Position numbers and translations under genes: made by a program. DNA of 42,859 nt from Rhizobium sp. Q54. GTDB lineage: Bacteria > Pseudomonadota > Alphaproteobacteria > Rhizobiales > Xanthobacteraceae. Location of the stretch: the NCBI GenBank assembly GCA_945861265.1, contig CAMAUC010000022.1:1-42859 (forward strand), given 5' to 3'. This document shows, piece by piece, positions 3,505 to 40,084 of this stretch. How positions within the stretch are numbered: position 1 is the stretch's first letter; each line of letters starts with the position of its first letter. The notes beneath the pieces are model-generated. The model had not been told where the DNA came from. It ran no database searches and was given only the letters and a program-made list of their open reading frames with translations.

Positions 3505-3743
3505 TCGAGCTTTCGCCTTCAGGTTGGGCGCCCGACTCAAAAGGCACACGCCAATATAGTCGCAATAAGCCAATTTCGTCGGCAAAGCATAGCCGGGATG
3601 GCCCAGTCTGCGCGCATAAGTCGCGACGATGGTAAAAACAGGGCCGGCGGCGCGCGCCGCCGTTAACGGGGGCTTTCATCGGCGCGGGCGACCCGATATC
3701 AATGGAGTTTGCCGCATTAGAGGCCGGGACGGAGAGTGAGCCA

Positions 3744-4658
<915 letters not shown>

Positions 4659-4695
4659 ACGGGCGTGGCCGAATAGGGCCGGGCGAGGGTGGACC

Positions 4696-5103
4696 ATGCT
4701 TGAGGAATTCAAGAAATTCGCGCTGCGCGGCAATGTCGTCGATCTCGCCGTCGGCGTGATCATCGGCGCCGCGTTTGGCAGCATCGTCTCGTCGCTGGTC
4801 GGCGACATCATCATGCCGCTGATCGGGGCGCTGACCGGCGGGCTCGACTTCTCGAACTACTTCTTGCCGCTGTCGTCGAAGGTCATAGCCGACACTTTAA
4901 TTGAGGCAAAAAAACAAGGTGCTGTATTAGCTTACGGCAGTTTTCTGACGATAACGCTTAACTTTACGATCGTCGCCTTTGTGCTGTTCCTGGTGATCCG
5001 GGCGCTCGGCAAATTGATCAAGAAGGAAGCCGAGAAGCCCGCGCCGGTGCCGAAGCAGGAACTGCTGCTGACCGAAATCAGGGACCTGTTGAAAAAGCCG
5101 TAA
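4696..5103 (+). CDS. mscL: large-conductance mechanosensitive channel
   Basis: This is a pentameric inner-membrane channel that opens under membrane tension to release solutes during hypo-osmotic shock. The 135-residue length is normal. It shows the N-terminal amphipathic helix ([20 protein letters not shown]), TM1 with the Gly/Ala-rich pore stretch, a periplasmic loop with DFSNYF, TM2 (about 87-105) and a C-terminal helix ending in LLTEIRDLL. The 80 bases at 4891-4970 (loop and start of TM2) are about 38% GC by hand count and use codons such as TTA, ATT, AAA and GTA, unlike the rest of the gene, which suggests a recombined segment. It is 37 bp downstream of dapA. Confidence 0.97.
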
Positions 5104-37503: not shown

Positions 37504-38388
37504 ATGGCGCGCATCGGATTTATCGGTCTCGGCAATATGGGTCTGCCGATGGCGCTCAACCTCATCAAAGCCGGGCATCAGGTCGAAGGCGTCGATCTTA
37601 ATCCGGGCGCGATCGAGAAGCTGAAGGCTGCCGGCGGCAGCAATGCCGAATTAGCCAAGGTCGCCGCCGCGCGCTGCGATGTCGTCATCACCATGCTGCC
37701 GGCCGGCAAGCATGTGCGCGAAGTCTATCTCGGCTCAGGCGGCATCGTCGAGAATGCCAATCCCGGCACGCTGCTGATCGACTGCTCGACCATCGACGTC
37801 GAGACCGCGCGCGATGTGGCCGCTGCCGCCGAGGCGAGGGGATTGCTGATGCTCGATGCGCCGGTGTCCGGCGGTGTCGGCGGCGCGGCCGGCGGGACAC
37901 TTACGTTCATGGTCGGCGGGTCGACGCAGGCCTTCACCCGCGCGCAGAGCATTCTCGACAAGATGGGCAAGACGATTGTTCACGCTGGCGGTGCCGGTAC
38001 CGGCCAGGCGGCGAAAATCTGCAACAACATGATCCTCGGCATTTCGATGATCGCGGTGTCGGAAGCTTTCGTGCTGGCCGAGAAGCTGGGCCTCGACCAC
38101 CAGAAGCTGTTCGACATTTCGTCGAAGTCGTCGGGCCAATGCTGGTCGATGACGACCTATTGCCCGGTGCCGGGTCCGGTGGCGACGTCGCCGGCCAACC
38201 GCGACTATCAGCCGGGATTCACTGCGGCGATGATGCTGAAGGATTTACGTTTGGCACAAGCTGCGGCGAAGGCCGCCGGCGCGAAAACAGAATTGGGCGC
38301 CGACGCCGAAAGGATTTATTCGGCATATGCATCGAGCGGCGAGGCGGAGCGGGATTTTTCCGGCATAATCCGCTTCATTCGCGGGTAG
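37504..38388 (+). CDS. mmsB: 3-hydroxyisobutyrate dehydrogenase
   Basis: It oxidises 3-hydroxyisobutyrate to methylmalonate semialdehyde with NAD+, a late step of valine breakdown. The 294-residue protein has the NAD motif GFIGLGNMGLPMA, the substrate motif DAPVSGGVGGA (118-128), catalytic Lys171 in AAKICNNM, and a helical C-terminal domain. A ribosome-binding GGGAG precedes ATG. The last 197 nt (38190-38386) are repeated at 39113-39309. The copy attached to this gene has fewer G/C third positions than the detached copy where they differ, so the present 3' end may be the acquired one. Confidence 0.95.
   Translation: MARIGFIGLGNMGLPMALNLIKAGHQVEGVDLNPGAIEKLKAAGGSNAELAKVAAARCDVVITMLPAGKHVREVYLGSGGIVENANPGTLLIDCSTIDVETARDVAAAAEARGLLMLDAPVSGGVGGAAGGTLTFMVGGSTQAFTRAQSILDKMGKTIVHAGGAGTGQAAKICNNMILGISMIAVSEAFVLAEKLGLDHQKLFDISSKSSGQCWSMTTYCPVPGPVATSPANRDYQPGFTAAMMLKDLRLAQAAAKAAGAKTELGADAERIYSAYASSGEAERDFSGIIRFIRG
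38190..38386 (+). repeat. 197-nt direct repeat, copy A (3' end of mmsB)
   Basis: It matches 39113-39309 at 189 of 197 positions with no gaps. Translated, the copies differ by one residue (Ala versus Asp at the codons gct/gac); six of the eight differences are synonymous third-position changes. Homology stops within the stop codon (TAG here, TGA in copy B). Confidence 0.97.
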
Positions 38389-39112
38389 CGCTTGAGGTTA
38401 CGCACAGGCTGCAATTGTAGTATAGACACTTCCGCATTTGATGGAAGCGGGGGCGTATAGCGGTGAAGTGTTCACATTGCAGAACGTCGATTCATGAGGA
38501 ATGGATCGGCACCGTGCTAAACGGCGGTAAGCAATATTGGTATTCTCGGGTAGCGATCTGCCCAGAATGCGGTAAGGATATCGTGCAAGTTGGGATTGGC
38601 GCGAGCGGTGTTCAGCCAACTAAATGGCTTCAGGTTTTTCCAACTGGATCGAGCAGAGGTCCTGTCGCAGCGGAAGTGCCTGCAGAAATAGCCACTGATT
38701 ATACGGAAGCAGCGTTAGTGCTCCCAATAAGTCCTAAAGCATCCGCTGCGCTATCGCGGAGATGCCTGCAACTGGTTCTTGCCAAGGCTGGCTATATCCA
38801 GAAGGACTTGTCTCAACAAATCGATGCGGTTCTAGCCGAGCAAGACACTCGAAAGGCGTTGCCCACAGGCGTGCATTCTATCGTTGACGCGGTGAGGAAT
38901 TTTGGAAATTTCTCGGCCCATGGGATAACCGACAAAACCACTCTCCAAATCATTGATGTTGAACCTCACGAAGCTGAGTATTGCTTAGACATTTTGGACG
39001 CCATTTTTGACCATTATTTCGTAAAGCCGGCTGAGGCGGCGCGAATGAAGAACGCTCTAAATGAGAAACTCGCTGCGGCCAAAAAGCCTCCAGCAAAGTA
39101 AGTGCCGAAGTA
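38387..39112 (+). mobile_element. candidate integrated cassette carrying a DUF4145 gene
   Basis: The segment between the two mmsB 3'-end copies (about 726 bp; unit length with one repeat 923 bp) has about 50% GC by hand count, against roughly 63-65% around it. It carries one gene, on the same strand as mmsB. The arrangement (host gene kept whole, displaced copy on the far side) is like islands that integrate into gene 3' ends, but no integrase is present. The mobility call is inference. Confidence 0.55.
38463..39101 (+). CDS. DUF4145 domain protein with N-terminal zinc ribbon
   Basis: The 212-residue protein has paired CxxC motifs Cys3-Cys6 (KCSHC) and Cys33-Cys36 (ICPECG) forming a probable zinc ribbon, then a helical DUF4145 domain (about 85-190; RCLQLVLAKAGY, VDAVRNFGNFSAHG). 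DUF4145 is found alone or fused to restriction-type proteins and its activity is not established. It starts with GTG at 38463 behind GGGGGC; no ATG fits better. GC is about 50% and codons such as TTA, ATA and CTA are frequent, unlike all neighbours. It is enclosed by 197-nt repeats, so it was probably acquired by transfer. Confidence 0.88.
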   Translation: MKCSHCRTSIHEEWIGTVLNGGKQYWYSRVAICPECGKDIVQVGIGASGVQPTKWLQVFPTGSSRGPVAAEVPAEIATDYTEAALVLPISPKASAALSRRCLQLVLAKAGYIQKDLSQQIDAVLAEQDTRKALPTGVHSIVDAVRNFGNFSAHGITDKTTLQIIDVEPHEAEYCLDILDAIFDHYFVKPAEAARMKNALNEKLAAAKKPPAK

Positions 39113-39311
39113 GCCGGCCAACCGCGACTATCAGCCCGGTTTCACCGCGGCCATGATGCTGAAGGATTTACGTTTGGCGCAAGACGCGGCGAAGGCCGCC
39201 GGCGCGAAAACAGAATTGGGCGCCGACGCCGAAAGGATTTATTCGGCATATGCATCGAGCGGGGAGGCGGAGCGGGATTTTTCCGGCATAATCCGCTTCA
39301 TTCGCGGGTGA
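39113..39311 (+). pseudogene. displaced 3' end of mmsB
   Basis: This is copy B of the 197-nt repeat plus its own stop (TGA 39309-39311). It encodes the last 65 residues of 3-hydroxyisobutyrate dehydrogenase from PANRDYQ to FIRG, intact in frame but without start or N-terminal domain. It is followed after one base by a lineage-typical hairpin repeat, which suggests this is the original chromosomal end of the gene. Confidence 0.9.
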
Positions 39312-39362
39312 TATGCACGATCCCGAAAAATGGGCACCGGTTTTCGGACAAGATCGTGCATA
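39312..39362. repeat. REP-like hairpin element
   Basis: Perfect 11-bp arms TATGCACGATC (39312-39322) and GATCGTGCATA (39352-39362) enclose a second stem CCGAAAA (39323-39329) / TTTTCGG (39341-39347), with loop ATGGGCACCGG. I recognise the GATCCCGAAAA..GGGCACCGGTTTTCGG..AAGATC pattern as a dispersed repeat of Bradyrhizobium-type genomes (from memory). It may end mmsB transcripts. Confidence 0.8.
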
Positions 39363-39424
39363 AAACAAACGAATCCGCGCGCACAGGGTGAACGAAACCT
39401 TGCGCGAATTTCGACAATTGCGAA

Positions 39425-39448
39425 TGCAACGGACCGTTCACCGTTGCA
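39425..39448 (+). promoter_or_regulatory. candidate operator upstream of ldtR
   Basis: This is a perfect inverted repeat TGCAACGG (39425-39432) / CCGTTGCA (39441-39448) with an 8-nt spacer, 123 bp before the chosen ldtR start, in an A/T-rich stretch. MarR proteins typically bind such palindromes and often their own promoter, so autoregulation is a reasonable guess. Confidence 0.4.
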
Positions 39449-39571
39449 AATAAACCTAATCTTTATGCTGTTATTTAAGCCGATTTTAGACTGGCCCGCA
39501 TAGTTTGGTTCACAAGGGACGAGGAAAACAGGGCCTCGTGACCAATGAAAACAAAACTAAGGGGCGTTGAA

Positions 39572-40084
39572 ATGAAAGCCGTCGCAAAGACGGTCGAACC
39601 CGCAGAGCGTGAAGCGCGGTTCGACACGATCCAGCCTTTGTATCATGAGGCACTGACCTTGGTTGAGCGGCTGCATCGCCGTCTGCTCGACGTCATCAAG
39701 GACGAATTCGACCGCCGCGGCCGCTCCGATATCAATTCGGTGCAGGCGCTGCTGTTGTACAATATCGGCGACAAGGAGCTGACGGCGGGTGAGCTGCGCA
39801 CGCGCGGCTACTATCTCGGCTCCAACGTCTCCTACAATCTCAAGAAGCTGGTCGAGATGGCTTTCCTCGATCACCAGCGCTCGCGCGTCGATCGCCGGTC
39901 GGTTCGCATCAAGCTGACCGCCAAGGGCCAGGAAGTGCGCGACATCGTCGACACCCTATATCAGAAGCATGTGCGCACGGTCGAACAGGTCGGCGGCATC
40001 AATGCCGACGAGTTCGCCACGCTCAACAAGTCGCTGCACCGGCTTGAGCGCTTCTGGACCGACCAGATCCTGTATCGCCTCTAA
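39572..40084 (+). CDS. ldtR: MarR-family regulator LdtR
   Basis: This 170-residue winged-helix regulator is of the LdtR type, which in Liberibacter and other Hyphomicrobiales controls an L,D-transpeptidase gene and stress tolerance. Its wHTH (about 55-130) includes SVQALLLYNIGDKELTAGELRTRGYYLGSNVSYNLKKLVEMAFL and the wing DRRSVRIKLT. I chose ATG 39572, preceded by AAGGGGCG; ATG 39545 adds 9 residues with a poor site. No transpeptidase gene is nearby. It is followed by a small conserved gene and glyA. Confidence 0.88.
   Translation: MKAVAKTVEPAEREARFDTIQPLYHEALTLVERLHRRLLDVIKDEFDRRGRSDINSVQALLLYNIGDKELTAGELRTRGYYLGSNVSYNLKKLVEMAFLDHQRSRVDRRSVRIKLTAKGQEVRDIVDTLYQKHVRTVEQVGGINADEFATLNKSLHRLERFWTDQILYRL

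Follow-up and report, generated by a model that had tools for sequence, protein, structure and literature searches.

A probable defence gene between two copies of the mmsB 3′ end in Rhizobium sp. Q54

In contig CAMAUC010000022.1 of Rhizobium sp. Q54 (assembly GCA_945861265.1), two near-identical copies of the 3′ end of mmsB enclose a single gene that probably serves phage defence. The contig was analysed over its whole length of 42,859 nt, referred to below as the window (contig C22 of genome G000); the genome comprises 133 contigs, is 95.7% complete and is likely a metagenome bin. We regard the locus as a compact, well-preserved displacement of a gene end, unusual in size and known in kind. 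The reading we favour, at a probability of roughly 45%, is an insertion of DNA from a sister lineage that was anchored by homology in mmsB on one side and joined illegitimately on the other, with a relic of a site-specific element as a close rival. Direction of change, agent and donor are what we infer from the comparisons below.

Results

Two copies of the mmsB 3′ end enclose one gene

The gene mmsB (37504-38388; this and all features below lie on the forward strand) is an intact open reading frame encoding a 3-hydroxyisobutyrate dehydrogenase of 294 amino acids (TIGR01692, E 9e-128). Its attached, functional 3′ end, copy A (38190-38386), is followed by a 74-nt leader that runs from the mmsB stop codon to the start of the enclosed gene (38389-38462), by the enclosed gene itself, here called the cargo (38463-39101, GTG start, 212 amino acids), by an 11-nt fringe (39102-39112) and by copy B (39113-39309), the displaced mmsB 3′ end. 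Behind copy B stand an mmsB-ldtR spacer of native type (39310-39544), 96.7% identical over 242 nt to that of the close relative G002, and ldtR (39545-40084), which encodes a MarR-family regulator (NF047395, E 6.1e-85).

Copies A and B are identical at 189 of 197 positions without gaps, confirming the two mmsB ends around a DUF4145 gene that had been predicted from the sequence. Their starts are 923 nt apart; this unit occurs once in the whole genome, and the pair is the sole direct repeat of at least 45 nt found in the window. The differences lie at 38214, 38217, 38223, 38229, 38256, 38261, 38262 and 38340, seven of the eight in third codon positions, and the sole amino-acid change comes from 38261 and 38262 jointly (GCT in copy A, GAC in copy B). 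At the seven third-position differences, the alignment reproduced the predicted skew, with G or C at six sites in the detached copy B and at three in the attached copy A. Identical runs of 77 and 46 nt are common to both copies. On the right, the likeness takes in one base of the stop codon, which is TAG in copy A and TGA in copy B, and goes no further; on the left, it extends through the fringe, which matches mmsB 38179-38189 at 8 of 11 positions and reaches the base after the cargo stop codon. The fringe is possibly junction microhomology or residual homology. The GC content of the cargo is 49-53%, against mostly 59-70% in its surroundings (300-nt windows).

The first 60 nt of the leader bear no significant likeness to native spacers, as shuffled sequences matched the best score in a fraction of 0.69 and the summed score in 0.16. 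A putative remnant of the native spacer behind copy A (CGCACAGG.TG) was suggestive by eye, did not reach significance in the shuffle test and was rejected. The spacer behind copy B contains a dispersed repeat at about 39315-39369 that recurs dozens of times across genomes of the genus; it is present at the same place in G002 and absent there in two other close relatives, G024 and G148.

The cargo is a predicted distant relative of PD-T7-4

The cargo protein combines a zinc-ribbon-like N-terminus, with CxxC-type cysteines, and a HEPN-like DUF4145 domain (PF13643, E 6.2e-12). It matches PHROG 1305 (E 1e-22) and, over residues 2-202, the PADLOC model of PD-T7-4 (E 6.6e-17, 59.7 bits). PD-T7-4 was obtained in E. 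coli by functionally selecting for defence against phages. Among 381 genomes of the bacterial family, 15 match this model, the best four at 204-237 bits compared with 59.7 bits for the cargo, which on sequence grounds we place as a distant relative of PD-T7-4. The genus also has, at another site, a member of the PD-T7-4 family that scores 237 bits (locus L187; G014, contig C53, 111933-112448).

An AlphaFold model of the cargo (pLDDT 83.7) was compared with the PDB by Foldseek. The matches, all at E above 0.1, included AbiV (9bj7) at rank 1 (TMt 0.44), 1ufb, presumably a HEPN protein, at rank 2 (0.69) and the HEPN structure 2hsb at rank 5 (0.67). R145 and H153 occur without variation in all 12 sequences aligned and are spaced R-x7-H; the spacing of the HEPN motif is R-x4-6-H. 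DUF4145 is classed among the HEPN families (PMC3710099), and the defence protein BxaP is described as containing DUF4145 (PMC10799925). Judged by its family, the cargo would probably provide phage defence by a HEPN-type mechanism. Chain OA of the 24-chain DUF4145 structure 9y9c matches cargo residues 68-199 (E 5.5e-08).

The cargo is absent from the mmsB locus of relatives

The genus sample consisted of 43 genomes, in four of which the mmsB C-terminus was unmatched; the mmsB regions of 38 relatives, i.e., every genus member with such a match, were analysed. mmsB and ldtR share one contig in 37 of these, separated by 172-1284 nt, and the 38th, G002, was excluded from this count because its ldtR could not be placed. 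None of the 37 carries the cargo gene between mmsB and ldtR, and all 38 mmsB loci lack a match to the cargo protein. mmsB runs directly into the native spacer in the closest relatives, G024, G002 and G148, whose mmsB bodies are about 91-92% identical to that of the window. The original prediction had pointed to strains with an empty site as the place to look, and all 37 are of this kind; the outcomes named as refuting the prediction did not occur, copy B being missing from some relatives and the arrangement not being fixed.

A complete element was not found at mmsB in the 37 relatives. Likewise, 80 named mmsB loci, with flanks of at most 10 kb, held neither a displaced mmsB end nor a complete element downstream, and their seven weak matches (59-73% over 55-175 nt) stop short of the gene end or lie kilobases off. 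Within the genus, the final 147 nt of mmsB recur in decayed form in G008 (69% identical; blastn 2e-20, nhmmer 3.9e-14), 185 nt behind the mmsB stop codon. The longest stretch common to this 185-nt insert and the cargo of the window is 9 nt. Since the displaced copy of G008 has G008's own mmsB end as its neighbour in the tree, local duplication is here as likely as replacement.

Three further mmsB-ldtR gaps hold other insertions. That of G001 (L065) contains an open frame with a membrane-protein-like product of 269 amino acids, that of G313 an open frame whose product would be small and rich in glycine (both translations read by eye), and that of G003 is filled with apparent repeated stretches.

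Copy B shows little decay

A tree was built on the 197-nt mmsB end, omitting G035 and G021 (frame or length) and G020 (mmsB cut at its 5′ end). Copies A and B are neighbours in this tree, within the clade of G024, G002 and G148. Measured against the unanimous state of these three relatives, three derived bases are shared by both copies, five are found in A only and two in B only, with 38261 ambiguous. Private changes amount to 8/180 in copy A, close to the 23/613 of the mmsB body, and to 5/180 in copy B.

In a local duplicate no longer under selection, copy B would be expected to have gathered the majority of the changes. Under a local-duplication null of 40,000 simulated draws, in which the acceptance of nonsynonymous changes in copy A was set by choice at 0.1, two or fewer of eight changes fell on copy B with P 0.0047, and with P 0.0002 if all of them had to be synonymous; charging the ambiguous 38261 to copy B (three or fewer changes) gives P 0.029. 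The fringe was treated as junction or cargo sequence: two of its three differences would give a lysine and a stop codon if read as mmsB, and the asymmetry vanishes if the 11 nt are counted as part of B. The polarisation argument turns on seven or eight bases, which are few sites. Within this scope, copy B probably behaved like coding sequence until recently, and an old local duplication of the mmsB end appears unlikely.

The original prediction held that the copies had diverged in different genomes and that the repeat is no local duplication. Both statements survive in part. Copy B has decayed little and does not look like a long-drifting duplicate, but among the sampled genomes neither copy has a nearer relative than the other copy, and the two have three derived bases in common, so that any donor would have been a sister lineage.

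Relatives of the cargo at other sites

Searching 296 genomes of the family with the cargo protein yielded eight matches at E ≤0.001, the window genome included. Beyond it, G305, G203 and G176, which belong to other genera, matched strongly and G014, G122, G161 and G179 weakly. In 397 genomes of the order, four matches were found at 1e-15, namely the window genome, G536 (57%), G726 and G418. By sequence comparison, the cargo is assigned to a family of accessory genes.

The closest relative of the cargo found, in G203 (L062, 7104-7738), is apparently frame-shifted and forms a clean insertion of 683 nt between the stop codon of an amidohydrolase gene and the start of a gene that, from its motif, we take to be of Rieske type. 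At the same site in G244 and G228, the stop and start codons overlap by one base. A flanking repeat of the upstream gene was not found in G203, which indicates that genes of this kind can come to lie behind a core gene whose end is not duplicated. Two genes further downstream is glyA, which in the window is found behind ldtR; the shared neighbour is probably a coincidence.

The relative in G176 (L063, 8579-9343) starts 56 nt behind a tRNA-Arg gene, and an integrase open reading frame overlapping tRNA-Met lies 2.4 kb upstream of it. No repeat of the tRNA-Arg end was found behind the gene, where the contig continues for 570 nt. In G305, the relative is flanked by an AbiEii-like gene and by an M78-peptidase gene that itself follows a ribonucleotide reductase gene. 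Homologues (31-54%) were also present on 11 viral contigs, in 8/11 cases within 3.5 kb of the contig end where 3.4 were expected (P 0.003), and an integrase was seen at 1/11 of these loci with a limited query set. Ten Streptococcus phage records match the cargo, and in the one examined the gene lies about 2 kb from an integrase; of eight matching plasmid records, one was examined and has an adjoining Abi-family gene. Transposon-like termini shared among the window insert and the surroundings of the G203 and G176 genes were looked for by eye, and none were seen.

Integrase, attachment site and route of entry

Neither the cargo nor contig C22 contains an integrase; the eight places in the genome that match PF00589 are all on other contigs. 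The mmsB 3′ end as a candidate attP was rejected, being absent from the phage records and viral contigs searched. It matches 38 plasmid records, and the 20 listed are replicons of Azospirillum, Rhizobium and Shinella, with 19 of these matches annotated as mmsB genes and one without annotation. The gene-transfer-agent marker PF13547 is absent from the genome, with a positive control in Caulobacter only. In the literature searched, which left most subscription papers out of reach, we found neither a 3-hydroxyisobutyrate dehydrogenase gene as an integration or genomic-island site nor a description of the arrangement itself.

These results bear on the claim that a cassette had entered mmsB in the manner of an integrative element, bringing a replacement end and displacing the native one. 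The empty sites, the accessory-family cargo and the geometry of the displaced end agree with it. On the polarisation obtained, either copy may be the native one, and the contig without integrase, the lack of a complete element at mmsB in the relatives and the repeat-free insertion in G203 speak against an integrative element as the agent.

Discussion

Homology-anchored insertion as the favoured reading

According to the reading we favour, the incoming DNA came from a sister lineage, carried the cargo gene behind an mmsB 3′ end and recombined by homology in mmsB. On one side, homologous joining inside mmsB would have given the gene the incoming, nearly synonymous tail, i.e., copy A. On the other side, the stop codon of the cargo would have been joined, at a point of scant or absent homology, to the recipient mmsB some 200 nt short of the gene's end, leaving the native tail (copy B), the native spacer and ldtR intact downstream. 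A dedicated recombinase would be unnecessary, as the outcome could be produced by homology-facilitated illegitimate recombination or by way of a merodiploid state that a deletion later reduced.

An insertion of this type explains the abrupt junction and also the clean insertion in G203, if the second joint there was made in the gap between two genes. It is supported by the absence of the cargo from the mmsB locus in 38 of 38 relatives, by the little decay of copy B and by the native-type spacer and ldtR that follow copy B. The homologous anchor is present at one end; at the other junction lies the 8/11 fringe, which could represent microhomology. A donor in which an mmsB end and the cargo are joined was found neither in the 38 loci of the genus nor by the cargo search of family and order genomes or with the PD-T7-4 model in 381 genomes. 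Two observations argue against this reading: the second displaced end, in G008, hints at a preferred site, which is not expected of a one-off recombination, and the position of cargo relatives near viral contig ends and behind a tRNA gene fits integrative elements.

Known systems offer a close parallel. A homologous anchor on one side, with the old 3′ module kept downstream, is proposed for the arrays of orphan modules at T6SS immunity and rhs ends (PMC5361080). Our locus differs in that the new and the old end are almost the same and are those of a metabolic gene, and that the gain is a separate defence-like gene. Homology-facilitated illegitimate recombination was measured as rare in E. coli (PMC3240628).

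As a wider and rather doubtful extension, PD-T7-4-like HEPN genes may spread as single-gene cassettes without a recombinase, carried on short 3′ ends of core genes, with the mmsB-ldtR gap as a recurrent pocket in the genus. Host recombination would then swap the tail of a gene for a synonymous one and drop a defence gene behind it.

Alternative origins

The close rival is that the locus descends from a site-specific element, as a relic or as a passenger without recombinase, that integrated by an attachment site mimicking the mmsB 3′ end, supplied copy A, displaced copy B and lost everything except the cargo. We consider this a real possibility, somewhat less probable than a homology-anchored insertion. 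The geometry is that of e14 in the icd gene of E. coli, where the element brings a functional replacement 3′ end and displaces 163 bp of the native end (PMC6379469). The arrangement found here likewise has a replacement and a displaced end, but e14 is 15.2 kb long and has phage genes, whereas the unit at mmsB measures 923 bp, holds one recognised gene and has no integrase of its own. Closer in content are CIMEs, which are described as having lost the integration and transfer genes and kept attL and attR (PMC5704250): here, too, two copies of a gene's 3′ end flank a unit without such genes. These repeats would be putative att sites at most, and a related ICE or IME was not seen at the site.

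A relic would account for a second event at the same site, with a different 185-nt insert in G008, and for the habit of the cargo family of residing at the edges of elements, as seen in G176 and on the viral contigs. The G008 copy, however, is nearest to that genome's own end, and the upstream gene in G203 and the tRNA-Arg end in G176 (over the available 570 nt) are not repeated behind the inserted genes. Also weighing against it are the missing integrase in cargo and contig, its presence at just one viral locus under a limited query set, the phage records and viral contigs without an mmsB 3′ end, and the 80 named loci and 37 relatives without a complete element.

We rate as unlikely a third origin, in which the mmsB end was duplicated locally and in tandem and the cargo entered between the two copies, either earlier or later. 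It agrees with the pairing of A and B as nearest relatives with shared derived bases, and the G008 pair groups together in the tree as well. Under the simulated null, however, copy B has decayed less than a copy freed from selection should, with either treatment of the ambiguous base, and a duplication without cargo was seen in no relative apart from G008, whose pair is independent and decayed. Misassembly of a mixed-strain metagenome is very improbable: the genome's fragmentation and likely origin as a bin, together with the identical runs of 77 and 46 nt, offer a place for misjoins, but both cargo junctions are unique sequence within a 42.9-kb contig, identity to relatives does not drop suddenly on either side, and the alternative resolution of the repeat would give a free 923-nt circle, which seems less plausible.

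When the 3′ end of a gene has been replaced, a site-specific element is the usual reading. A case of 0.9 kb, with one defence-like gene and no recombinase, suggests that elements may shrink to a single gene between two gene ends or, alternatively, that plain recombination leaves the same mark. Tallying displaced gene ends could then gauge the entry of defence genes into genomes outside recognised islands.

A control search for other displaced gene ends

As a control, displaced copies were sought for the tails of open reading frames, of which 836 came from 243 kb of G000 with the window included, 651 from 197 kb of G008 and 318 from 89 kb of five relatives. The search returned mmsB in G000, mmsB in G008 and six further loci. 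At the protein level, L237, L238, L242 and one open reading frame of L251 proved to be tandem paralogues over most or all of their length, and three more of L251 showed DNA likeness without a protein match. We drew no P value from the control because it is not wholly clean. In L239 (G000, contig C3, 3168-3995), the C-terminal 190 of 275 amino acids recur just downstream, and in L244 (G000, contig C8, minus strand, 3653-4813) the C-terminal 225 of 386; these two loci are either partial paralogues or further displaced ends. The tandem paralogues of L237 (G000, contig C1) are two in number, correspond over nearly their full length and are transporter-like, presumably Kup-like.
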